DNA from: an uncultured Anaeroplasmataceae bacterium
Lineage (GTDB): Bacteria; Bacillota_I; Bacilli_A; Acholeplasmatales; Anaeroplasmataceae
DNA: 64,000 nt
NCBI GenBank assembly: GCA_949840955.1
Contig: CATKXV010000003.1
Coordinates: forward strand, 62,001-126,000
Direction of reading: 5' to 3'
This document shows, piece after piece, positions 6,483 to 64,000 of this stretch. Position 1 is the first letter of the stretch. Each line of letters begins with the position of its first letter. The notes under the pieces are model-generated. The model worked only from the letters and a program-made list of their open reading frames with translations, was not told the DNA's origin and searched no databases. A program made the position numbers and the translations under genes.

Positions 6483-9400
6483 TTACTTAAAGGTATTCCA
6501 TATAATTTCAAGCAAAGGAGTTTCGTTTACTTGATAAGAATTTCTTAAATCGGCAGTTCCTGCCCCTAAAAATCCACTTTCCTTTTTACCATAATGACGA
6601 TGATTGCCATTATAGGTACACGCTATTAAATCTAAGGAAGCCTTTTGAAGTTCTGTACAATAGAAGCTAATTTCCTTAGCTTCATCCCTCGCTTTTTCAA
6701 AATTCATAGTACCGGTTTTTATAAAATAGAAGGCATCCGTTGCAATCATAGAGGCTTCCATTGCGATAGGGAAATAAACAGATACCAAGCCATCACAATT
6801 TTTAAAGGCATTGCTGCCAATTCTAGATAAGCTTTCATTCAAAATAAGCGTTTGTATCGTGGTATTTCCTGTAAAAGCACTAAACTTTTCCTTCGCATCA
6901 TTTGTCTGCTCTTTTATAGAGGTAACCTTCTTATAGCTTGAGCCTAACAAAGCGTATTCTGGGAAAATTAAAGTAGAAGCTGTTCCAGTATAGCTTGTAA
7001 TACTTGCAAAACCGTTCATATCCTCAAATTCAAAGTACTCCTGCTTTGTTGATGGATAACAAGTAAGGGTATGCGCTCCTTGAATATGCTTAACATCATC
7101 TAAAGATAAATAGGAGGTACTATCAGAAACCCATGCATTGATTTCAAAGCTTTCATAGGTTCCATTTGGCAATATATTTGATATATCGGTTTCTACATTT
7201 CTTCTTATATAATACCCATAATAATTTTTATTGTTCAATTCCTTTTTAGGAACCTCAAACTCTATGAGATCATAGGTTTCAAATATGGTATCCTCTTTAG
7301 CGTAGATTCTTAATTCTAGCCTTTGCATTTCTTCATTAAGGATAAATAAATTTACGAAATTTTTAATTATAAATTCTGGAGTTAACACCAAATTTGAATA
7401 TAGGAAATATCCATTATTGGATAGAATTGCATCCTCCTTTAAGAAAACCTCCTTATCCAGAGGATCCAAAAGATACTCCTCCTCCTTGAATTTTAAATAA
7501 AAATCCAAGCTTACCTCTTCGTATAAGGTAAAGAAATGATATATTCCACTCTTTAATTCATTACAGCTAATTGGGTTTCCTTCAGCATCCAAAAGACCCA
7601 TATACTGATATAAGGTCTGGCCTTCTATATGAATATTAAACATTTCCTGGAAATAGGATTCAAAATCAAAGCCCTCATAATAGCTTATGGTAGCTTCCTC
7701 TGCAAAATCAGAGGTTACAGTTATCTCGATTGTAACATCCCTTAATCTTGCAAAATAGCTATGATTATGATTATCCATATAAAGTTGATCTATATCCTCC
7801 ACAGGCTTTAGATAGGAGTCATCCAAATACCAGCCTACAAGCTCATAATATCTTTGCTGATCATTTATCATCAAAGGAACAATACTATGATTTTGGTAAG
7901 GGAAAATCAGCCTATCCCCTTCAGAATATTGCTTTACCATATTCATTCCATCAAGCAATTCAAAAATTACAGTATGCTTAATTTTACCATTAGAAATCCA
8001 GCTTCCATTAGAATATATGTATTCTTCATCCTTTTGGAACATCTGCTCATACTCATGAATATAGTCATATAATTCATCTAAGGCTACCTTTTGAACAACA
8101 AAGAAAGAATCATCGTTCTTTTGAATATTAGATAATACAAGATTATTACTATTTAAATTGATTACAGAAACCATAGAGAATTTAAAATTCGGAATGCTAT
8201 AAATCATTGGAACAAAAATGATATTTCCTTCTTCATCCAATACATAAGCACCACCTTCATCTGTTTTTGCAACAAGCTGTGATTGAAGGGTTGCCGTTAA
8301 ATTTCCTAAATTAAAATTATCAATCATTTCTCCCATATTCATTCCCAAAGTAAAGGTATCGGTTCCGATAACGACCTCGTTAACACATTGAGATGCATCC
8401 ACGAAGCCATCTCCTTTAGCCTCACTATTATAGATTAGATCTAATATTTTATTTGGTAAGCCAATTCCAAAATCCATAAGATAATAAATTATATTTTCCA
8501 TAAAGGTTGAATAATGGATTTGAACTCGGCGTATACTTATCCCCTTTTCAATTCTATTGATATAAACATAATCATCCTTATAATAAATTTGAACCTTCTT
8601 TTCTGACAGCATCGCAAATACATAAGGTATATCTAGCTCTGCAAGGATAATTGGCTTCCCCTGCTCATCTACATTTACCTTGATATCAACAGGTACCTTA
8701 ATATTAATCATGCTTAAAGCCTGAAGCGTAACTTGTCCAGTAATTTCAAAATTTTTCTCCATAGCATTGTGGTATAGTGCCTCAAATAAATAGGAAGCAT
8801 TGCTGATATCATAGTAATTCTCTAAATCTGTAGGAATATCTAGACTCAGCTCTTTTGAAGTGAATTCTAAATCCAATTGATTTAGCTTTAGATTCTTCTT
8901 TACATTTGTATAGGACACATATAAATTAGAAGCATGGATTCCCGTTATTTGATTCCCGGTTCTATCCAAATGAAATTCCATCACCTGTTCTTCATCTATC
9001 ATAGTAGGAAATAACGCACTTGCATAAATGGAAGCAAAAATAGAATTATTTTCTACACGAATGGAATGGAAGAAATGATTGAAATTTAAAACATTTGCTT
9101 CTTCTGTAAGAGATACACTTGGAAGATCTATCTTCATCAATTGAACCACAGATTCAATTAAGGCCTCTATTCCTGTATAGGTTGATTTGACTTTAATTAC
9201 AGCAGATGGATCCTCAGCATTATTTCCATAGGTTGCAAATACCATTGCTGTATCAAAATCTGCTCCTAAAGTATGTAATGTTGATAAGGAAATGATCTCG
9301 ATATCCAATTGGTGCCAGCCTACTTGCTCTTGGTTCTTATATTCTTGAATCATTGCAGTTAAGCGAGCATCAAATTCATTATTTTCTAAAAGCTTTATAT

Positions 9401-12400
9401 GGAGGTCCCCATTTATATCAGCAATAGGAGTTCCATTAGAATAAATTGAAGTGAAAATATGGATGTTGAATTCCTTATTCTTCATTACTGAATAGGCATC
9501 TACAAAGCATCTTAAAAGCTCTAAAATTTCTTCTTTTCCTAAATAGCTAGAAGGTGCTGTAAGTTCTTCTAGGATAGATTTGGAAATAGTCAAAGGCACG
9601 GTAAATGAAACCTTATCATAATTTCCTTCAATTTTTCCATCTAAGCCATTAGATGTTAAATGAAACAAGATAGCCATTTCACAAGCCTTATTAAGAAGCT
9701 CAGTTAAATTTGCCGTAATTGAAGTTCCCTCAAGTAGTATACCTAAAGAGGCAAAATCAATTTCTATATCCTTAAATGCATTGTTTATAGTAAAGGAATA
9801 GATTGGCTCTATGATTTGCTTTGCCTCAAGGAATAAGGTCTCCAATTCATTTATATTGATTCCAATTGTTTGATTTGAAATAGTGAAATATAGCATATTC
9901 TCCTTTAAAAGAACATCTATATCTACTACAAAGCCCAAGCCCTGAACACAAAGATGACCTGTAAATTCAAAGCCATTCTTTAGAAGAACATCTATACTTC
10001 CTGATACCTGAAGCTGATCTGCCCCATTTGAATGATAAAGCTGAAGAATTGCATCATGGATATCTAGATGAAGCGTCTTAGATTTTAAAACATCGACAAT
10101 ATAGAATACCTCATCAAGGAGCGTATATAAATCCTGCTTTGATATTGTAGCTTCATATTGTACTGGTTTTTTTACAACAGCTTCTCTTTGAGAGAACTGA
10201 AGCTCGAATAAAGACGCAGAGCTGATGGATAAGGTAATCTGATCCTCAACAGTAAAGCCTATCATGATTTCGGATAAAATATCCAAATAGCTACTTAAAT
10301 CTAATTTGATAAACTGCTCACCTAGGGTTATTTTATTTAAAATTTCTTTAACCATATGAACTGAATTGGAATGAGATTGACTCTCTCCATCAAAAATCTT
10401 AGTAGAAATATAATTTACGAGCTCGCCCAAATCCGAATGGTCGAATACTGCTACGTTATCATATATCTTAAGATATACACTATGATTTACATATCCCATT
10501 TCAAACTCAAATTTGAAATTGCGATAAGCTATTCTAAATTCTGCAACTATATCATATGTTATTTCATTTAAAATAAAATCTACTGTACCCGTAATAGATA
10601 AAGGAGAGTCCTCGATTTGTATTTCTCCATTGATATCTAAGCCAAAGGATTCCTTGCCTAGGATATCAAATAGCTTCTTCCCTAAATCTACATATCCTTT
10701 AATATTTGTATAGGCTGCTTCTTCAATTTGTATTTCTTTTTGAATTTCTTTATTTACGCTAAGCTCTATTTCATTTTGGTTTACTCTTATATCAAAGCCT
10801 TGGGATGTTTTTGCTATATGTACTACTACATCCTGAATTCCAAGCTCAATCCAATCTTCTCCTATGGTTGGTCCTTGAAGATTTTTTAAGAGCTCCTCTA
10901 TATTTAGATTTGGTAGTGTAATTTGAGGAAGGAATCCTTCAATACATTTTCTTTCTAGCTTGACCTTAATTTGGTTATAGCTGATATAGATGGATTCATC
11001 CTTATAGGCAACATCTATATCAAAGACTTCTTCCTTATAGCTGATATGAAGCTTACCAATTGCCTCAATGTGAGTAGTGAAATCTACATAAAGCTCATAA
11101 GCTACTCCTATTCCTTCATAGCTTAGGCTTCCACTAATTCCTACATGCTTCTGATTTAGGATTTCCTTTATATCCTGAACATACTTTAATAGGTTCAAGA
11201 TATCCTCCTCTGTATAATAGCTACTTGGGAGCTGAACCTCTTTTTCTTCTATACGCTTTAGATTCATCGTAAGATTGCAAGCTTTATTTTTTATCTCAAC
11301 TAAAACTTGATCCTCAACAACAAGATAGCTTATTCCGATAAGACCTAGCTTTTCAGCATCAAGCTCTATGCCATTCTCCTTAACCTGTAAAACGGATAAG
11401 AAGCCAATTAGGGTCTTCAAATCCAATTGGAAGGAAGGAAGCTCGATTTCAAATTCTTTTAAAATTTTTTGAATGGTATCAGCTAGCGTATCTAAATTCA
11501 ATTGTATTGTATATCCTAAAACACTGAGATATATCTTATTCTCCTTTTGAAGGATAGTTACATCTATACTTTTTCCTTGATAGGTTAGTTCTAAATTCCC
11601 TTCAATTTCATAAGTGCTATGATAATAGAAATTAAGATTACCCGTAATAGATAAAGGAGAGTCCTCGATTTGTATTTCTCCATTGATATCTAAGCCAAAG
11701 GATTCCTTGCCTAGGATATCAAATAGCTTCTTCCCTAAATCTACATATCCTTTAATATTTGTATAGGCTGCTTCTTCAATTTGTATTTCTTTTTGAATTT
11801 CTTTATTTACGCTAAGCTCTATTTCATTTTGGTTTACTCTTATATCAAAGCCTTGGGATGTTTTTGCTATATGTACTACTACATCCTGAATTCCAAGCTC
11901 AATCCAATCTTCTCCTATGGTTGGTCCTTGAAGATTTTTTAAGAGCTCCTCTATATTTAGATTTGGTAGTGTAATTTGAGGAAGGAATCCTTCAATACAT
12001 TTTCTTTCTAGCTTGACCTTAATTTGGTTATAGCTGATATAGATGGATTCATCCTTATAGGCAACATCTATATCAAAGACTTCTTCCTTATAGCTGATAT
12101 GAAGCTTACCAATTGCCTCAATGTGAGTAGTGAAATCTACATAAAGCTCATAAGCTACTCCTATTCCTTCATAGCTTAGGCTTCCACTAATTCCTACATG
12201 CTTCTGATTTAGGATTTCCTTTATATCCTGAACATACTTTAATAGGTTCAAGATATCCTCCTCTGTATAATAGCTACTTGGAAGCTGAATTGCTTTAGAT
12301 TCAATTTCTGAAAGCTCTAGCTTCATTTGGACAGATTGGTTTTCTATTTCTAGATATAGATTTGGATCATTTAGAAGAAATGAAACGACAACCTTTCCAA

Positions 12401-14879
12401 TTTTTTGACTGATTTGATTTAAATCCAATTCTATTTTATCACTTTCGAATCGGAAAGAATGCAACACCTCAAGTAATGTCGATAAATCCAATCCTAGGCT
12501 TTCCTCTAGATGGAATCCAAGAACCTTTTGTATTTCTTCCATTGTGGATGAAAGAGTATTCCAGTTGATTTTTACTGTTTTATCATAAAGCGTTAAATAT
12601 AAATCATTCTGATTGAAAATGATTTTTGCTTTAATCTGCTCTCCATTTATATTTATGGTGAAGCTTCCTTCTATAGTGTAGGATGTATTGGTTAAAACAA
12701 AATCCAAAATACCATCAACGGGTACACTCTGATTTTCAATAGAAATCTCACCTGACATATGGACACTAAAGGACTTCTTTCCAATCATTTGGCTCAAATA
12801 ATCCATAATATCAAGATAGGCTTTTAGCTCAACATAATCTGTTTGATCAAAAGAGGTATCAAAGACTGCCTGCGTATCAAAAGAAAATAAAATGTGATAT
12901 GGATCAATGGATATATCAAAGCCCTTTTCTGTGTCGAGAATAGAAATAGAAAGGTCTTTTAAATGCTCATCCATCATAGATAAATCCAGGTTGATTTTAA
13001 TCGCATTTTCTTCTATCGTTAGTCCCTTCAACAGGGTCTTAAAATCAAGCGTTGATAGGATATTCCATGCTTGTTTTAAATCAAAGTTTGGGCTTTGTGA
13101 AAAGGAAATTCCTTTTTTATTTAAAAACTCTATCAAATCATTTAAAGATAATTTTACTTTATTTTCCTCATAGGTAACATAAAAATAGGAATCTACATAA
13201 TATAGAGTTAGCTTTTCACTGATTCCTTTATTCGGATTTTCAATTTGAAGATCCAACTGTATTGGTTGATTTAGGCTTGTATGAATAAAGGCCTTTCCAG
13301 AAAGACTATACTCCTCTATTTGTGTATCAAAGGTGATAAGAATTCTTTTGTTTTTTAAAATTTCAGTAATATCCTTTATCAAGAAATCCACTTGATTTAA
13401 ATCATTGTATTCTCCTTCAATAGGCAAAAATTTAATGTTTTCCTGTTTTACTATGTCTATTTTAATTTCCTTATTTTGTATATTCAACAAGGAGGATATT
13501 CCTCTTAAATCCAATTCATCACCAGATTTTTGAATATCAAAGGTAAGTGGCATAGAAATTCCCATAAGATTCAAAGCCAAATCTAAACGAACTGTATTCT
13601 CTGTTTCAGTTACAATGGCATTATTGATATCATTCATTATTTGATTGATATCAAAATCAGGAGAAACACCACTTGCATTTTCACCATAAAGAATTTCCTC
13701 TAATAAAGGCTGTAATACCAAGGAGGCTTCTTCAATGTTACATTTTACTTTTAGTTGATTAAAATCGATATAAACTACTTTAGATTCATAAACAATCTGT
13801 AAATCACCAACACTGACCTTAACCTTTACATCATTTAAATCTGAAATATCCAAAGATAGCTTTCCTTCTAAATCCATCCCGTCCTCTAAAGCAATATGGA
13901 TTTTGAAAAGATGCTCCTTTTCCTTACCACTTAAAAGAGATCCAGTAATATAAGATAGTGGGGTGTTTTCCTCTACGGTTGGAGTATCTGCCCCATCTGA
14001 AGGCTCTAAATCCTTATACTGAGTAAAATAATCTAAGGCTGGTCCTAAATCTGGCTTTTCATATGTAAATTTCTCATGAATGTTTGTTTCACAATTTACA
14101 GCAATAGGCGCTACCTTTGGAGTTACATTATACTTTTCCTTTGTATTAACCTCCTGTATACGCCACTCCTTATCAAATATAAATTCAATTTGAATGGAGG
14201 AGAACTTAGCTTCAGTTAAGGAAGAGGCATTGGTTGCCACCTCTCTTTTATACCAAAAGGGTGCATAATCCTTGTCTGGGTTTAAGGATAAGCTGATAGA
14301 GTAGGTTCCATCCCCTAGCTCTGTTAATTCAGATATTTCTAAAATTGTTTCCTTACAAATAATATAAGCTGTAGCTTGGGTTGGAAGCCACCCATATCGA
14401 ATGATATATTGACTATTTGAAATACATTCTGGTTCGTCTTCCTTCCACAGAATTTCATTTTCATTTTTGGAAATAAAATCTCGAATCAAAACCTTTCCAT
14501 CCTTAAAATACTTTTGTTTTCCTAAGGTAACTAGACCTCCAGAAATTGTATCTACAAGCTGTTCCTTTCCATTTACGCGACGATGATTATAAATGGTTTG
14601 TTTTTGTCCAACAGAAATGGCTGTTCCCTCTGTTAAAGATGAATATTGATCTGTATGCTCTAAAACCCATAAAATATAGGCAATATTATCATATGAATCA
14701 TGATCGATAGGGGTTGTACCATCCGTTGGAGCAGGTCTAGTATCGGTTTTATACTTTGCCACTTCTCCTTTACCATAAACAATAGGCTGTTGATTTGCCC
14801 TTGTAAAGTAAAATGCTGCAACTCCACCAATGGTTATTATTAAAATGAAAATAGATAGAAATATAATTTTTTTCTTCAT
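6483..14879 (-). CDS. Giant modular extracellular protein (about 2800 aa)
   Basis: Not a named family I recognise. The N-terminus (KKKIIFLSIFILIITIGGVAAF) is a signal peptide or membrane anchor with no lipobox Cys. From about residue 280 to 2100 it is made of roughly nine diverged modules of about 170-190 aa, each with a helical DILxxLxxVxxILxxK segment followed by alternating amphipathic strands (for example FDIDVAYKDESIYISY). Residues about 865-1080 and 1215-1431 are identical, owing to a 650 bp direct repeat. A Listeria/Bacteroides-type repeat (YYELVGWYLDDSYLKP, about residue 2330) and a BspA-like LRR segment (about 2670-2710) follow. No LPXTG or C-terminal membrane segment is seen. Start: GTG at 14891 is in frame but abuts AAAGGA; ATG 14879 fits better (13-nt spacing). 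Own consensus promoter and terminator; monocistronic. Confidence 0.88.
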   Translation of the reverse strand: MKKKIIFLSIFILIITIGGVAAFYFTRANQQPIVYGKGEVAKYKTDTRPAPTDGTTPIDHDSYDNIAYILWVLEHTDQYSSLTEGTAISVGQKQTIYNHRRVNGKEQLVDTISGGLVTLGKQKYFKDGKVLIRDFISKNENEILWKEDEPECISNSQYIIRYGWLPTQATAYIICKETILEISELTELGDGTYSISLSLNPDKDYAPFWYKREVATNASSLTEAKFSSIQIEFIFDKEWRIQEVNTKEKYNVTPKVAPIAVNCETNIHEKFTYEKPDLGPALDYFTQYKDLEPSDGADTPTVEENTPLSYITGSLLSGKEKEHLFKIHIALEDGMDLEGKLSLDISDLNDVKVKVSVGDLQIVYESKVVYIDFNQLKVKCNIEEASLVLQPLLEEILYGENASGVSPDFDINQIMNDINNAIVTETENTVRLDLALNLMGISMPLTFDIQKSGDELDLRGISSLLNIQNKEIKIDIVKQENIKFLPIEGEYNDLNQVDFLIKDITEILKNKRILITFDTQIEEYSLSGKAFIHTSLNQPIQLDLQIENPNKGISEKLTLYYVDSYFYVTYEENKVKLSLNDLIEFLNKKGISFSQSPNFDLKQAWNILSTLDFKTLLKGLTIEENAIKINLDLSMMDEHLKDLSISILDTEKGFDISIDPYHILFSFDTQAVFDTSFDQTDYVELKAYLDIMDYLSQMIGKKSFSVHMSGEISIENQSVPVDGILDFVLTNTSYTIEGSFTININGEQIKAKIIFNQNDLYLTLYDKTVKINWNTLSSTMEEIQKVLGFHLEESLGLDLSTLLEVLHSFRFESDKIELDLNQISQKIGKVVVSFLLNDPNLYLEIENQSVQMKLELSEIESKAIQLPSSYYTEEDILNLLKYVQDIKEILNQKHVGISGSLSYEGIGVAYELYVDFTTHIEAIGKLHISYKEEVFDIDVAYKDESIYISYNQIKVKLERKCIEGFLPQITLPNLNIEELLKNLQGPTIGEDWIELGIQDVVVHIAKTSQGFDIRVNQNEIELSVNKEIQKEIQIEEAAYTNIKGYVDLGKKLFDILGKESFGLDINGEIQIEDSPLSITGNLNFYYHSTYEIEGNLELTYQGKSIDVTILQKENKIYLSVLGYTIQLNLDTLADTIQKILKEFEIELPSFQLDLKTLIGFLSVLQVKENGIELDAEKLGLIGISYLVVEDQVLVEIKNKACNLTMNLKRIEEKEVQLPSSYYTEEDILNLLKYVQDIKEILNQKHVGISGSLSYEGIGVAYELYVDFTTHIEAIGKLHISYKEEVFDIDVAYKDESIYISYNQIKVKLERKCIEGFLPQITLPNLNIEELLKNLQGPTIGEDWIELGIQDVVVHIAKTSQGFDIRVNQNEIELSVNKEIQKEIQIEEAAYTNIKGYVDLGKKLFDILGKESFGLDINGEIQIEDSPLSITGTVDFILNEITYDIVAEFRIAYRNFKFEFEMGYVNHSVYLKIYDNVAVFDHSDLGELVNYISTKIFDGESQSHSNSVHMVKEILNKITLGEQFIKLDLSSYLDILSEIMIGFTVEDQITLSISSASLFELQFSQREAVVKKPVQYEATISKQDLYTLLDEVFYIVDVLKSKTLHLDIHDAILQLYHSNGADQLQVSGSIDVLLKNGFEFTGHLCVQGLGFVVDIDVLLKENMLYFTISNQTIGININELETLFLEAKQIIEPIYSFTINNAFKDIEIDFASLGILLEGTSITANLTELLNKACEMAILFHLTSNGLDGKIEGNYDKVSFTVPLTISKSILEELTAPSSYLGKEEILELLRCFVDAYSVMKNKEFNIHIFTSIYSNGTPIADINGDLHIKLLENNEFDARLTAMIQEYKNQEQVGWHQLDIEIISLSTLHTLGADFDTAMVFATYGNNAEDPSAVIKVKSTYTGIEALIESVVQLMKIDLPSVSLTEEANVLNFNHFFHSIRVENNSIFASIYASALFPTMIDEEQVMEFHLDRTGNQITGIHASNLYVSYTNVKKNLKLNQLDLEFTSKELSLDIPTDLENYYDISNASYLFEALYHNAMEKNFEITGQVTLQALSMINIKVPVDIKVNVDEQGKPIILAELDIPYVFAMLSEKKVQIYYKDDYVYINRIEKGISIRRVQIHYSTFMENIIYYLMDFGIGLPNKILDLIYNSEAKGDGFVDASQCVNEVVIGTDTFTLGMNMGEMIDNFNLGNLTATLQSQLVAKTDEGGAYVLDEEGNIIFVPMIYSIPNFKFSMVSVINLNSNNLVLSNIQKNDDSFFVVQKVALDELYDYIHEYEQMFQKDEEYIYSNGSWISNGKIKHTVIFELLDGMNMVKQYSEGDRLIFPYQNHSIVPLMINDQQRYYELVGWYLDDSYLKPVEDIDQLYMDNHNHSYFARLRDVTIEITVTSDFAEEATISYYEGFDFESYFQEMFNIHIEGQTLYQYMGLLDAEGNPISCNELKSGIYHFFTLYEEVSLDFYLKFKEEEYLLDPLDKEVFLKEDAILSNNGYFLYSNLVLTPEFIIKNFVNLFILNEEMQRLELRIYAKEDTIFETYDLIEFEVPKKELNNKNYYGYYIRRNVETDISNILPNGTYESFEINAWVSDSTSYLSLDDVKHIQGAHTLTCYPSTKQEYFEFEDMNGFASITSYTGTASTLIFPEYALLGSSYKKVTSIKEQTNDAKEKFSAFTGNTTIQTLILNESLSRIGSNAFKNCDGLVSVYFPIAMEASMIATDAFYFIKTGTMNFEKARDEAKEISFYCTELQKASLDLIACTYNGNHRHYGKKESGFLGAGTADLRNSYQVNETPLLEIIWNTFK
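10587..11236. repeat. Copy A of a 650 bp in-frame direct repeat
   Basis: Matches 11640-12289 with an offset of exactly 1053 bp (351 codons). By eye the copies are identical except at position 11229 (G here, A at the equivalent 12282). The repeat is inside the giant gene and keeps the reading frame. Confidence 0.93.
11640..12289. repeat. Copy B of a 650 bp in-frame direct repeat
   Basis: Second copy of the 10587-11236 repeat. The two encode identical protein segments of about 216 aa separated by about 135 aa of diverged module sequence, consistent with recent gene conversion or unequal exchange, or with an assembly artefact. Confidence 0.93.
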
Positions 14880-14923
14880 ATTCTCAAACACGTCCTTTAG
14901 AATTCCACAATTTACATTATATC

Positions 14924-57227: not shown

Positions 57228-60200
57228 CTATTCTTCTGTTTTCTTTTTCTTTTTTATGAGTATTATAACGACACTTCCTACAGCGCCAGCTAAAAGCACA
57301 GCTCCCAAGCAAGAGCATAGAATGATAATCCAAGTATTGGATTGCTCCTTTGGTTCTACTTCTTCCTTGTTGGCATTTTTATAGCTTTCATATTCCTTTG
57401 TAAAATCTAGCTCTTCATCTAAGACATCCTCTAAATCTGCTAGCTTTTGTACAAGGGTAGAATAGTTTTCTACAAGAACCTTTTCTGCCTCAGTTAGATT
57501 GGAATAAGACTGATATGCCGTACGAATTCGATCATAGCTATATTTGGAATTATCGACATCAAATAATCTTTGGATAAGTCGAGATGTGATGGAAGCATTG
57601 AGGCATTCCTTAGCTCTAAGATAAAGAGCTATTGTATCCTCTGCTACATAACTCATTTGGGAAGAATCAGCAAGTAGGGAATTATAATAAAATTCAATTT
57701 CTCCTAGCTGATCTGCATCTTTCCAGGTAATGCTTGAAGGAATATATTTACACAACTCATTAAACTTTGATGCACTTAGACCCATAGTTTTTCCACTCGT
57801 AACACGATTCCCATGATCATCTACTACATCATCAAAATAGGTTTTATAAATTAAGCTGTCATAGCCTTCACTATTTTCAGGATAAATATAGGTTAAGCCT
57901 GTAACCTGGCCTACTGTACCAACAAAGTTTTGATAATATAGTGGATAAAGAATAGTTCCAGCAGCATCATAGTAATAATCAAATGGATAAAGCATATCAA
58001 ATTTCGGGAAGGTATCTGGGGTTGGTGTAACCTCTATTGTCATTGTTCCCTCTAATGTTGGAGCCTTATAGGAATGGAAAACCACCTGCTTCAAATTTGG
58101 TGTATTATAGAATCCAAAATTACCGATTGCTTTTAAGGATGAAGGTAAGGTCAGCTTTTCTAAAAAGGTATTTCCACTACAAGCATAATATTCAATACGC
58201 TCTGTACCATCCATTACACTAAATTCCTTTGCTTCTTTTTTCGTTGGATATGCACTTAGCATATAGCCTCCAGATGGAAGCTTCATATATAAAACATCAT
58301 CTATAACAACCGAATGAGTAAGCTCCGTATTAGGCTCTGTATAAAATCTTTCAAGCTCTACTGTACCAGCAAACGCTAAATAATTGACCGTTTTTAAGGT
58401 TGCAGGCACCATAAATTCATGAAGCTTAGTTGCATAAAAGGCATTCGTTCCTATATAAGAAACCTTAGGAAGCTGAATATCCTCTAATCCTGTACAGCCA
58501 TAGAAGCCATATTCCTCAACAACCTCTACCTTTGGTGCATATACGCTTGTAGCAGTGGTCAAGCCATAAAAGGCTCTTGCCTCAATTGTTTTAGCATTAG
58601 GTATATTTAATTTGGTTACTGCGGTTTGATGTAGACAGCCTGCCTCAAAGGTTTCAATAAATTCTAAATTAATTTCCAATAAGGCTTCACAACCAAAGAA
58701 GGCAGATTCTGCTAAGGTTTTTAGTTTTTCTCCTAAAACAACCTCCTCTAAAGCTGTACAATAAGCGAAGGCTTGCATTTCCATTTGCTTAACATAGCTT
58801 AAATCTATTCTTTTAAGAGATGTACAGCCATAGAAGCAATCTACTCCAATATACTGTAAGGACATTGGGAATTCAATCTCTTCAAATATAGGACCATGTT
58901 CTCCACTTACATATTGGGCAAAGGCACCCTCCTCTAGACGCTCTACCTTAGGAAAGCTTACCCTTTTTAGATTATTACAATCAGCAAAGGCACCCTTACC
59001 AACCTCTGTTACATTTTCAAGATTCGCTTCTTCTAAATTGAAGCAATAGAAGAATGCATATTCACCAATTTTTCCTGTCACCTTAGATAAATCTATATTC
59101 TTTAATGATGTACAGCGATAGAAAGCCGCATTTTGAAGAGTGACATTTCTATCCTGTGGCATATGAACCGTAACTACAGGAGTTGCTTGAAATGCAGATT
59201 GACCTACAACGGAATCTGATCCTAAAGTTACCTCCTTTAGAGTAGAGCAATTATAGAAGGCGCCAGCTCCAATGGTTACGTGATTTCCTAAAACAACAGA
59301 GCTTACATTCGTTGCTGATAAAGCATATTCTCCTAAGCTTGTTACATTTTCAAGATTGATTTGGTTCAATTTATTACATTGATAGAATACAAAATCACCA
59401 ATTTCTATCTCCTGCTCTGGTAGAGCTACAGTTAAAAGATTACTACACTCTGCAAAAGCATTGGCTTCAATTTTGGCTAGCTTTGAACCAGCTTCACAGG
59501 CAAAGGAGGTTAAGCTGCTATTTAAAAAAGCACCCTCTTGAATAACTTCTACCTCTTTTGGCAAGATATAATTTCCCAAATTTAAGCCTGGACTAACAAG
59601 AATCAAGGCTGTCATATCCTTATTAAATAATACATTTCTGTTGACTGTATAATATTTTGAACCACTTGCATATATATTTTTTAATGAGTTACAATTATGG
59701 AAGCTAGATACTCCCATATGAAGTAATCTTGTATTTTCCTCAAAGATAAGATTTGTAATTCCAGCACCCTCAAATGCATAATCATCTAGCTCTATATCAG
59801 AGGAAGGTAATGTGAAATTCTTTAAGCCTGTACATTTGTAGAAGGCTCTAGGAGCAATATATTCTACCTTTCCCTCAAAGCTGATATTGCTTAAGGCTGT
59901 ACAATTTGCAAAGGCTCCCTCACCGATATAGACTAAATCATTTTTAATAACAACATTCTGTAATCTTTTGCAGTCCTTAAATACAAAATCAGGGAGACGA
60001 TTGCCATAGAATTCTATGGTACTGATTCTCGTATTTTCGAAGAAACTATCTCCGAGCTTTGTCCATGTTCCAAATAAAACTGTAGTTAATCTAGCACAAT
60101 TTGCAAAGGCACTTTCTCCAGCTCTCTTTAATTCTCTTAAATCCACAGCTTGAATGTATTTACAATTTGCAAAGGCATAATCTCCAATGGTATTTGCACT

Positions 60201-63200
60201 AATGGTATTTGCTTCTAATAAACGCTCACAATCATAGAAGGCTCTTGCCCCTATAACGACAACCTTCTCTAAGTTAATTTCCTCTAAAGAAGTGTTATTA
60301 TAAAAGGCATATTCCATAATCTTTGTACAGCTTGATGGTAAGGTTACCTTTTTTAAGGCTGTACAATTATAGAAGGCAAATTTTCTTATTTCCTCTACTC
60401 CTTCTGGAATGACTACACTTGTTATCGTAGTATTTCCAATAGGATCCTTTTTTGCATCTAAATCCTTATCATCCTCTACCTCTTTATCATTATCAAGAAT
60501 ATAATGGGAGAAGGCAAAGGATTCAATATACATAATACCTTCATCATCTGGGATGACTACCTCGCCACCTTTACCCTTATATTCCATAAGAGTTCGATTC
60601 TCAATAATAAATTCACTCTTAACCTCCACAGAGCATCTTGCAGTTATTGTAGAGGTTTTTCCATCAATTGTCATACGAAGTGTAATTCTAGTTTTACCCT
60701 CTGCAACTGCTGTTACAACTCCATTTTCATCTACAGTAGCAACACGCTCATTAGAGGATTGCCATTCTAGCTTATATCGAGAGGATGGCAAATTCCAAGG
60801 CTCCATCTTATAGCTTAATTTTATCTGCTCGGTTGGATAAAACCGAATGCTTGGAGAGGAATCAAAATAATTGATGGATCCCGTATGCCCTATTTCAGAA
60901 ATGTCATTATCTCCTTCAAAGGCAAATAATGTATTATAGGAGGTAAATTCAAGCTTGGTTAAATCAGCATTTTCACTTGAAAATTCATTATCTGAATTTA
61001 CCTCATTCGATACATGAATGACGATATTAATACTACGACCTGTAGTAGCACTAGTACACCGAATTGTTGCATTACCCTCACGTAAGCCTTCAATTTTACC
61101 ACGAACAACCGTTACTACAGATTCATTTGTAGAGCTCCAGGTAAGATTTTTCAAATAATCTCTTACGATATCCTCCTTACCTGCAATTTTTATATATTCT
61201 GTTAAATCTAATGTATCATGTATTTTTATATTGAATACATCCTCTGTAAAGGCTAGATTCTTACTATCGAGTTCAGGTAAACAAACCTGAAAGATATTAG
61301 AGTTCATCGCATAATCATCGATAAAGAAGGTTAATCCTTCACTTAAATTCGTTTGATATATCAAATCAATATAATCTGTAATTTCGATCGTTACAACGGT
61401 ATCCTCGCCTCGATTCGTTTGATAAACTGGAATAGGATTTTCAGTTAAGGAGGCATATGTCATGGAGCCCGTTTGAGTATTTGTATAAATTGATATAGGT
61501 CGAACAGATTGTACATAATGATTATCATAAACAGTTAAATCGACATAATACCGATCGATTTTGTCTACTCGGTCATATTCCTTTTTGAAATCAGCCTTCT
61601 TTAAAATTGGAGCTTCATAATCCACATAAAAGGAAAAGCTGAAGGTGTCATTTAAATTATTTTGGGTTGAATCCCAATCTAGACTGGCTTGCATTTTCAC
61701 TTCATAGTGGGTGTTGTTATCAAAAAGCGCATCTATCATTTCTAATTCAATAGAGGTAACATGCGGGTATTGTACCCCTGAATAATGCGATTTATAGCAA
61801 TTGTATTCCGTTTTAGACCATACAATCTCATTTGTATCTGTATTTCTTATGGTAATATCCATTTGCTTAGCGCCTCGAAGCAAGCCAGCAAATACAGCAT
61901 ATAAACCACTAATGGAGTCTTTATAATAGGATATTGCTGCATGCTCTGTAGTTGCAGGGATAGCATCATACTGATCTGTATCAATTTGATATACATAGCT
62001 TCCTAGAGGAATAATGTAATCATAATAATATCTTCCTAATGGGGTCGTTGCATAATAATCTGCCTTGATTCTATCATCGTCATCAATCGCAGCATCATAG
62101 GCCTCTGATTCTACCTCATAATAGCTTTTATCAAAGATAGGAGCCTCTGACCAATCTCCAAAGAAGGCAAGTAAAGGAATATTTAAATCAATCCCTTCTT
62201 CTGCTTTTAAGCAAATAAAGCCCTCAACATACATACCATTATCAAAATTTTGATTAATATAAGATTTATCCTTTTTAGACAATTTCATTGTTATGGTAAT
62301 GACAGCATCACCATTTGCCTCAACAACAACATTGTTTTTCTCCTTTTTACCGTTTCCAGCTACATCAAATTCTAAACTAGGGTTTAGCATATATGCCATT
62401 TCAGCCACATAGTTAGAATCTGATGTAGATAAAGATTCTGTCATAATCAAAGAGGAGAGATCATAAGTTAATACTTGATTAGACAAATTCTTCAAATGGA
62501 AACTAAAGATATATTCACCACTTCTCTTAGGGTCATCCCCTAATTCGATTTTCGTCTTATTTGAATTTTCTACATAAAGATAAGCATTCGTATTTACTGA
62601 ATTATAAAGACTTGCAAGTCCTGCTCCCTGCTTTCTTGGAGAGTATGGATTTCCCTTTTGATCTAAGGCAATTGTAGCAGTAGACATACATAACTGATTC
62701 ACCATATCTCTAATTTCAGTTGTAGAAAGGTTAGGATATTTTTCCTTAACATATTGACGGATTAGAATAGTAATACCACACATATTAGGGGAAGCCATAG
62801 AGGTACCTGATAATTTATCATAGCCCCCACCAGGGATTGCTGATAAAATATTCCCACCATGAGCTGTAATTTCTGGCTTCAGCTCTAGGCTTGGTGTAGG
62901 TCCCCAGCTTGAAAAATCAGACATAAATGGACCTGCTAAATTATTGGCATTAAATTCTAAAACTCCCTCAGCCTTAGAGGCCAAAAGAATACCATCATCC
63001 TTAGAAATTGAAATCACTGGAATTTTTACATCATTTCCTACAGTCATAATAATATCTCCAAAGACATTATTATAAACGATACAAGCAATCGCTCCAGCCT
63101 CAGCAGCATACTGTACCTTTTCCTCAAAGGATATATCTCCACGCTTAACCAAAGCAATTTTACCCTTTACATCAATTCCCATATAGTTGGCTGTCATACC

Positions 63201-64000
63201 AACACCTGGAACAGTAACATAATCATAGGTTACAGATGTACTTCCCGTAACTCCAAGCATTTCAAAGAAATTATATTCCTTTGCAGATTGATTAAAGGAT
63301 TCATGGAAAAATACAGTTTGTTCGCCATTAGCAAGCATATACTTATCCTTATTCCCATTAATGGAAGCAACAGACATAGCTCCTTTATAGGTAGACGGAG
63401 CTCCAACCGTAGCTGAATCTGGATTTGTAGTCTTATTGGTATTACCAAAGGCTGATCCATAGGCACTGCTATAGTCATTAGAAGCTGCAACAACTAAAGA
63501 TATACCTGCCTCTTCAATAGAATCATATATTTTATTTTTATATGTTTGGTCTACTTCTCTTGTAAAGCCACAGGAAGTGCCCAAGGACATATTAATTGCA
63601 TCAACACCAAGGAGGACAGCATCATCTAATCCAGCAAGGATATCTCCATCATCTGCACCATCCTTATAATCTGAGAACACCTTCATAATGGCAAGCTGTG
63701 TATCAACAGCAACACCATGAATTGTAGAATCATAGCCTCCAATTATACCAGCAACATGGGTTCCATGCTCACTATGATAAGGCATAATATCTGGATCCTT
63801 ATCTGCATAATCATAGCCATAAGGAATTTTACTAGAATAATAAACATCCCGAGTCTCTAAACCCTCACTATAGCCACTAGCCACGGTATTGGGTAATATT
63901 TTCCCTATATCTTCTCTACTCATTAAAGGATCTTCCGTTATATGTGTAGTAAAAGCAGTATGTGTATAATCACAACCAGTATCCAGTATAGCTACAATTG
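57228..64000 (-). CDS. Surface subtilase (S8) with BspA-like leucine-rich repeats, 5' end missing
   Basis: The frame is open to the right edge, so the signal peptide and propeptide are outside; 2256 aa visible. Catalytic triad: Asp in VAILDTGCDYTHTAF (63960-64000), His in HSEHGTHVAGIIGG, Ser in SGTSMASPNMCG. A PA domain is inserted before the Ser (ALVKRGDISFEEKV). Then come lactocepin-like beta domains, two Big_2-type domains (SSNERVATVDENGVVTAVAEG), about 30 BspA/LRR_5 repeats, a helical stretch, and a C-terminal membrane anchor followed by KKKKKTEE; no LPXTG. Likely degrades proteins at the cell surface to feed the Opp2 importer encoded downstream. Confidence 0.93.
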   Translation of the reverse strand, partial: IVAILDTGCDYTHTAFTTHITEDPLMSREDIGKILPNTVASGYSEGLETRDVYYSSKIPYGYDYADKDPDIMPYHSEHGTHVAGIIGGYDSTIHGVAVDTQLAIMKVFSDYKDGADDGDILAGLDDAVLLGVDAINMSLGTSCGFTREVDQTYKNKIYDSIEEAGISLVVAASNDYSSAYGSAFGNTNKTTNPDSATVGAPSTYKGAMSVASINGNKDKYMLANGEQTVFFHESFNQSAKEYNFFEMLGVTGSTSVTYDYVTVPGVGMTANYMGIDVKGKIALVKRGDISFEEKVQYAAEAGAIACIVYNNVFGDIIMTVGNDVKIPVISISKDDGILLASKAEGVLEFNANNLAGPFMSDFSSWGPTPSLELKPEITAHGGNILSAIPGGGYDKLSGTSMASPNMCGITILIRQYVKEKYPNLSTTEIRDMVNQLCMSTATIALDQKGNPYSPRKQGAGLASLYNSVNTNAYLYVENSNKTKIELGDDPKRSGEYIFSFHLKNLSNQVLTYDLSSLIMTESLSTSDSNYVAEMAYMLNPSLEFDVAGNGKKEKNNVVVEANGDAVITITMKLSKKDKSYINQNFDNGMYVEGFICLKAEEGIDLNIPLLAFFGDWSEAPIFDKSYYEVESEAYDAAIDDDDRIKADYYATTPLGRYYYDYIIPLGSYVYQIDTDQYDAIPATTEHAAISYYKDSISGLYAVFAGLLRGAKQMDITIRNTDTNEIVWSKTEYNCYKSHYSGVQYPHVTSIELEMIDALFDNNTHYEVKMQASLDWDSTQNNLNDTFSFSFYVDYEAPILKKADFKKEYDRVDKIDRYYVDLTVYDNHYVQSVRPISIYTNTQTGSMTYASLTENPIPVYQTNRGEDTVVTIEITDYIDLIYQTNLSEGLTFFIDDYAMNSNIFQVCLPELDSKNLAFTEDVFNIKIHDTLDLTEYIKIAGKEDIVRDYLKNLTWSSTNESVVTVVRGKIEGLREGNATIRCTSATTGRSINIVIHVSNEVNSDNEFSSENADLTKLEFTSYNTLFAFEGDNDISEIGHTGSINYFDSSPSIRFYPTEQIKLSYKMEPWNLPSSRYKLEWQSSNERVATVDENGVVTAVAEGKTRITLRMTIDGKTSTITARCSVEVKSEFIIENRTLMEYKGKGGEVVIPDDEGIMYIESFAFSHYILDNDKEVEDDKDLDAKKDPIGNTTITSVVIPEGVEEIRKFAFYNCTALKKVTLPSSCTKIMEYAFYNNTSLEEINLEKVVVIGARAFYDCERLLEANTISANTIGDYAFANCKYIQAVDLRELKRAGESAFANCARLTTVLFGTWTKLGDSFFENTRISTIEFYGNRLPDFVFKDCKRLQNVVIKNDLVYIGEGAFANCTALSNISFEGKVEYIAPRAFYKCTGLKNFTLPSSDIELDDYAFEGAGITNLIFEENTRLLHMGVSSFHNCNSLKNIYASGSKYYTVNRNVLFNKDMTALILVSPGLNLGNYILPKEVEVIQEGAFLNSSLTSFACEAGSKLAKIEANAFAECSNLLTVALPEQEIEIGDFVFYQCNKLNQINLENVTSLGEYALSATNVSSVVLGNHVTIGAGAFYNCSTLKEVTLGSDSVVGQSAFQATPVVTVHMPQDRNVTLQNAAFYRCTSLKNIDLSKVTGKIGEYAFFYCFNLEEANLENVTEVGKGAFADCNNLKRVSFPKVERLEEGAFAQYVSGEHGPIFEEIEFPMSLQYIGVDCFYGCTSLKRIDLSYVKQMEMQAFAYCTALEEVVLGEKLKTLAESAFFGCEALLEINLEFIETFEAGCLHQTAVTKLNIPNAKTIEARAFYGLTTATSVYAPKVEVVEEYGFYGCTGLEDIQLPKVSYIGTNAFYATKLHEFMVPATLKTVNYLAFAGTVELERFYTEPNTELTHSVVIDDVLYMKLPSGGYMLSAYPTKKEAKEFSVMDGTERIEYYACSGNTFLEKLTLPSSLKAIGNFGFYNTPNLKQVVFHSYKAPTLEGTMTIEVTPTPDTFPKFDMLYPFDYYYDAAGTILYPLYYQNFVGTVGQVTGLTYIYPENSEGYDSLIYKTYFDDVVDDHGNRVTSGKTMGLSASKFNELCKYIPSSITWKDADQLGEIEFYYNSLLADSSQMSYVAEDTIALYLRAKECLNASITSRLIQRLFDVDNSKYSYDRIRTAYQSYSNLTEAEKVLVENYSTLVQKLADLEDVLDEELDFTKEYESYKNANKEEVEPKEQSNTWIIILCSCLGAVLLAGAVGSVVIILIKKKKKTEE
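58060..60600 (-). repeat. BspA-type LRR_5 repeat array within the subtilase
   Basis: Roughly 30 units of 20-25 residues of the form IGEYAFxxCxxLxxVxLPxxVxxI, such as CTALKKVTLPSSCTKIMEYAF. Such arrays mediate binding to host or matrix proteins in other bacteria; here they are fused behind a protease. Confidence 0.85.

Follow-up and report, generated by a model that had tools for sequence, protein, structure and literature searches.

Bacterial surface genes that contain repeats are subject to concerted evolution and gene conversion, recombination homogenising their intragenic repeats and changing their number. The giant gene studied here is alike in that its repeats appear to be homogenised and renumbered by recombination, but the exchange keeps a two-module register, and identical modules are therefore never neighbours. 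The gene comes from a gut bacterium of the family Anaeroplasmataceae and lies in a stretch of 64,000 nt (hereafter the window), itself within a 199-kb contig of a 2.1-Mb assembly of 34 contigs, and its product contains ten homologous modules of ~160-230 aa, delimited with an iterated profile HMM. The closest described proteins are the Periscope Proteins SasG, Rib, and Sgo_0707 (PNAS 2021, PMC8201768). Shared with them are the long surface-type protein, the array of similar folded domains, the variable domain number, and near-identical DNA repeats thought to permit intragenic recombination; SasG, moreover, repeats a two-domain unit, G5/E. Yet Periscope Proteins have highly similar domains throughout the stalk, whereas most modules here share 20-35% identity, near-identity being confined to one or two pairs: adjacent modules share 21-30%, in keeping with the initial annotation, which had called neighbouring modules similar at fold level only, and modules 4 and 6 alone are identical. 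The anchor also differs, an N-terminal membrane segment here versus a C-terminal wall motif there, as does the module fold, LolA/LprG-like in our case, and length variation is here known between species. The tandem array of folded domains is present (ten modules, folded model), its extracellular site being read from the N-terminal segment only, which makes a surface protein plausible. We class the giant protein with the Periscope-like, length-variable proteins, from which a novel kind of module and a step of two modules set it apart. BspA-type LRR proteins, with multiple repeats as their main body, are more distant: a single 83-aa LRR_5 stretch stands at the C terminus, where it could act as a ligand binder. 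Periscope Proteins, for their part, project a terminal domain for ligand binding from their wall anchor.

At the level of the single module, the comparison is with the LolA, LprG, and LppX-LprAFG carriers. The AlphaFold model of modules 4-5 (mean pLDDT 87.6, pTM 0.76) predicts a helix together with a large and curved antiparallel sheet that carries a helical insert, the half-barrel of these carriers, and Foldseek returned LprG, LprF, and LolA with probability 1.00. VIA-align superposes LprG and LprF with module 4, and LolA with module 5, at Z of about 8-10 (module 4 versus LprG, 9.1-9.8; module 5 versus LolA, about 8-9), the top alignment reaching Z 9.8 with an rmsd of 4.3 over 146 residues. 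Those top Foldseek hits whose alignments were long but poor (SGS1, laminin, sliding clamps) were rejected as sheet-on-sheet matches. As modelled, the modules are LolA/LprG-like, a match of fold and not a proof of homology. Sequence profiles do not recognise them: the Pfam LppX_LprAFG match is weak (E 0.0097, 16.2 bits, under the cut-off of 24), NCBIfam gave no match, and the module profile found nothing significant among PDB sequences (best E 0.038). In contrast with the solved members, which are single-module, ten modules share one chain here, at 6-15% sequence identity to the carriers, and lipid binding is putative. Our literature searches found neither a description of the giant protein family nor a report of about ten LolA/LprG-fold modules per polypeptide.

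Layout and distribution of the giant gene

The features of the gene are collected in table 1. Its true start is likely the ATG at 14879 (aa 5), and the start MKKKIIFL is conserved in the alignment of relatives (A1). The N-terminal membrane segment is presumed to be an export signal or anchor, and the protein is probably exported and membrane-anchored; no wall-anchor Pfam domain was reported for it. Relatives were found by scanning contigs with the N-terminal alignment, a whole-protein scan of contigs having given none. Of 55 genomes in the family, 38 have the N-terminal domain. Genomes with relatives of this domain bear the names Anaeroplasmataceae, Anaeroplasma, or Acholeplasmatales; most are gut or rumen metagenome assemblies, and the type strain Anaeroplasma bactoclasticum ATCC 27112 is among them. 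In some relatives (G015, G073, G031, G078, and G014) the frame that holds the domain is short, about 300 aa, and has no module array. The order of the genes (ackA, giant gene, HDIG gene, trmFO, xerC) is for the most part conserved across the genus. A second giant gene lies in the window (57228-63923, minus strand, at least 2231 aa), with subtilase (S8), PA, Fn3-like, and Big_2 domains and eight LRR_5 stretches; it is without near-exact internal repeat.

Table 1. Features of the giant gene in window coordinates
Feature	Position	Strand	Basis
Giant gene, 2802 aa, GTG start at 14891	6483..14891	-	ORF list, translation; full-length relative in G006, 44%
N-terminal hydrophobic membrane segment, aa ~9-31, IIFLSIFILIITIGGVAAFYFT	14799..14867	-	by inspection; conserved in A1 relatives
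Conserved N-terminal domain, 58-70% identical within genus	13998..14759	-	alignment A1
Module 1, aa 329-500	13392..13907	-	iterated profile HMM
Module 2, aa 505-689	12825..13379	-	iterated profile HMM
Module 3, aa 697-880, 37% identity to module 5	12252..12803	-	iterated profile HMM
Module 4, aa 887-1046, 100% identity to module 6	11754..12233	-	iterated profile HMM; LolA/LprG-type fold (predicted)
Module 5, aa 1055-1231; first ~30 aa = module 7 head, remainder module-3 type	11199..11729	-	iterated profile HMM
Module 6, aa 1238-1397, 100% identity to module 4	10701..11180	-	iterated profile HMM
Module 7, aa 1406-1587	10131..10676	-	iterated profile HMM
Module 8, aa 1597-1789	9525..10103	-	iterated profile HMM
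Module 9, aa 1798-2030	8802..9500	-	iterated profile HMM
Module 10, aa 2044-2203, partial profile match	8283..8762	-	iterated profile HMM
C-terminal BspA-type LRR_5, aa 2671-2753	6633..6881	-	Pfam PF13306, E 1.1e-7, 32.2 bits vs cut-off 27.7
Near-identical copy 1 (gene order), aa 868-1085: linker + module 4 + module 5 head	11639..12289	-	direct comparison
Near-identical copy 2 (gene order), aa 1219-1436: linker + module 6 + module 7 head	10586..11236	-	direct comparison
Non-repeated 402-bp stretch separating the copies = module 5 core + tail	11237..11638	-	

An exact in-frame repeat between modules of unequal age

The initial annotation had pointed to a near-perfect in-frame repeat with one difference and an offset of exactly 351 codons, and direct comparison bears this out. 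Positions 10586-11228 and 11639-12281 are an exact direct repeat of 643 bp, followed by a single mismatch (G/A at 11229) and seven further matches out to 11236/12289; flank included, the copies agree at 650 of 651 positions. They are spaced 1053 bp apart, so the reading frame is kept. At the same offset, identity drops to chance immediately beyond the low-coordinate end of the repeat, and within about 100 bp beyond its opposite end. No other direct repeat of 60 bp or more occurs across the window (20-bp seed). As a control for rarity we took a 464-kb sample of the source genome in pieces of 20 kb, where the runner-up exact direct repeat within any piece measures 183 bp (L053 1192-1374, G000:C3 at about 41.2 kb, offset 213 bp; same contig as the giant gene). 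In module terms, the repeat takes in the linker before module 4, that module in full, and some 30 residues at the start of module 5, matched at the second site by the linker before module 6, module 6, and the head of module 7.

The modules around the repeat tell of very different ages. Identity is 100% between modules 4 and 6, only 37% between modules 3 and 5, and 20-35% in the remaining pairs; the repeat has about 132 silent sites with zero changes, while the cores of modules 3 and 5 are near saturation (dS about 2.3). A single plain tandem duplication therefore cannot produce both. In the module tree, modules 3 and 5 group with the module-3 class and the identical modules 4 and 6 fall near the module-4 class (a weak placement), which makes 3-4 the older unit. 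From the dS contrast, this unit would have been duplicated long ago or assembled from diverged parts, and the 650-bp tract copied recently; set against each other, the 37% and 100% identities thus suggest an older two-module duplication recently overwritten by gene conversion. Could purifying selection instead have held modules 4 and 6 identical since an old duplication? The modules look functional, the frame is kept, and the segments have dN/dS of 0.05-0.47 between close species, with the largest values in the middle and towards the C terminus, which indicates constraint and is no proof of diversifying selection. Selection on the protein, however, cannot hold about 132 silent sites identical, and across species a given module position shares only 30-32% identity. 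The identity at silent sites refutes this explanation, to which we give practically no credence.

The account we favour, and hold to be fairly probable as a whole, is that of an array of LolA/LprG-fold modules that evolves as two-module units undergo homologous recombination with each other. Modules 3-4-5-6 would go back to an older duplication, of the module-3/module-4 unit; later, a single tract of ~650 bp would have been copied between matching places two modules apart, in either direction. This tract would comprise the linker ahead of module 4, the module itself, and some 30 codons at the start of the one after it, ending on both sides where the likeness between the sites ends. We infer gene conversion as the last step in the source genome, and RecA, which is present, would be the probable agent. 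Were the unit freshly duplicated and its module-3 or module-5 core then replaced by that of a diverged strain, the outcome would look identical; the two cores lie at about the same distance (27-35%) from the module-3 class in the relatives compared, so that no donor is seen there.

The same class of event in related species

In G006, a 1122-bp unit occurs twice with one mismatch over 1145 bp, and the junction lies within 23 nt (ATCAATAAAGAATCCTTAGGAGT) common to both sites, which reads as a fresh tandem duplication. In G007 the two copies are old (57% and 59%) and unhomogenised. A single unit is found in G003, the first half 82-91% like copy 1 of G007 and the second half 80-87% like copy 2, and the TrmFO of the two genomes is 97% identical; this chimera appears to be a two-to-one contraction, as expected from crossover between misaligned units. 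Identity within one duplicated unit of G019 rises abruptly, from about 65-85% to 100%. Other genomes show further variants: a single module copied two places along, with 540 bp without mismatch (G008); a near-complete unit copy of 1037 bp with one mismatch at an offset of 1059 (G028); a near-complete copy again, with a 975-bp unit and a third partial copy (G013). G009 and G005 have one unit each and G004 neither. Thus, the gene conversion or unequal crossing-over originally proposed finds its counterparts in the duplication of G006, the contraction to a chimera in G003, and the homogenisation in G000 (the source genome) and G019. Judged from these sequences, copying in the giant gene family appears to be a recurrent process and not one event, having occurred independently in several species. 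With one genome per species, the module count runs from 6 to about 20, and four species with 96-98% identical TrmFO have between 8 and 10 modules. The suspected hotspot of length variation accordingly holds at the between-species level, with recurrent near-exact copies in the same stretch.

Several other long frames were seen. L045 (G012:C1:156000-175000) has about 20 modules in a 4628-aa frame and no near-exact internal copies. In G003, an uninterrupted frame of 16,337 codons (L116-L118, C3, from base 396, plus strand; 49 kb, no N) has a membrane segment at its start and dockerin-like sequence at its end, and in G009 a 10,680-codon frame matches the LRR region. We also considered whether relatives' contigs end inside the gene through breakage at repeats, and set this aside: in G007 the contig ends share a branched overlap of 76 bp, which strain mixture explains equally.

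Could the repeat be an error of assembly, one module 4 used twice or a longer array collapsed to two copies? The 643-bp exact repeat is longer than a short read, contigs of several relatives end inside the giant gene, and in G001 a scaffold gap sits at such a repeat, flanked by a 77-bp tail of it at an offset of 366 codons. Yet unique sequence differs on both outer flanks and between the copies, the reading frame is intact, and false reuse would leave the diverged core of module 5, a member of the module-3 class, unexplained. Because independent assemblies carry the same class of event in the same stretch with different units (975-1122 bp) and boundaries, a pure artefact is very unlikely, although the copy number in the source assembly may be wrong.

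A fresh unequal crossing-over between two strains deserves somewhat more weight, though we still think it unlikely. An array through the head of module 7 would have been joined to another array from module 3 onward, the module-3 alleles being very different. One such event would account for the register as well as for module 4 and the head of module 7, and the G006 junction lies at a similar place, near a module head. Central modules do diverge fast, best same-class matches being about 25-35% between species whose neighbouring trmFO and ackA products are 84-91% identical; between G000 and G006, modules 2-8 are 25-39% identical, as against 69% for the N-terminal domain and 45-56% for modules 1, 9, and 10 and the C-terminal part, so that the central modules diverge fastest. 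This reading nevertheless demands conspecific strains at 37% in module 3 and identical through module 4, whereas the closest species pairs retain 60-77% in both modules.

Two-module register and biological meaning

In the source genome and its relatives, near-identical pairs all stand at lag 2 and adjacent modules never exceed 43% identity; the rearrangements in relatives fall in the same gene stretch, in frame and in two-module steps. This fits recombination pairing like with like, odd and even modules there being separate sequence classes. Identical neighbours may also misfold together, an argument reviewed for multidomain proteins (PMC8201768). Under the favoured account of two-module recombination, length variation may itself be a function of the giant protein, the advantage presumably coming from altering its reach or face. 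A bolder proposal, which we find quite doubtful, is that a membrane-tethered chain of lipid carriers passes lipids (e.g. host or dietary sterols, fatty acids) cellward, two-module recombination tuning its length and lipid specificity and the misfolding of identical neighbours imposing the step.

Anaeroplasmataceae are usually called peptidoglycan-deficient. To take the host as wall-less is, however, countered by three penicillin-binding transpeptidase matches over cut-off in the source genome (G000:C11:35766-36689, C6:9477-10307, and C9:38028-38693), in line with the peptidoglycan genes reported in 40-60% of Anaeroplasmataceae genomes (PMC10868615). Given these matches, the host may have a wall.

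Overall, fresh duplication stands next to drift, conversion, and contraction when this one gene family is compared across related species, and with all steps thus visible the length change of a giant repeat protein can be read directly. The lag-2 rule, in turn, makes selection against identical neighbouring domains testable in nature.
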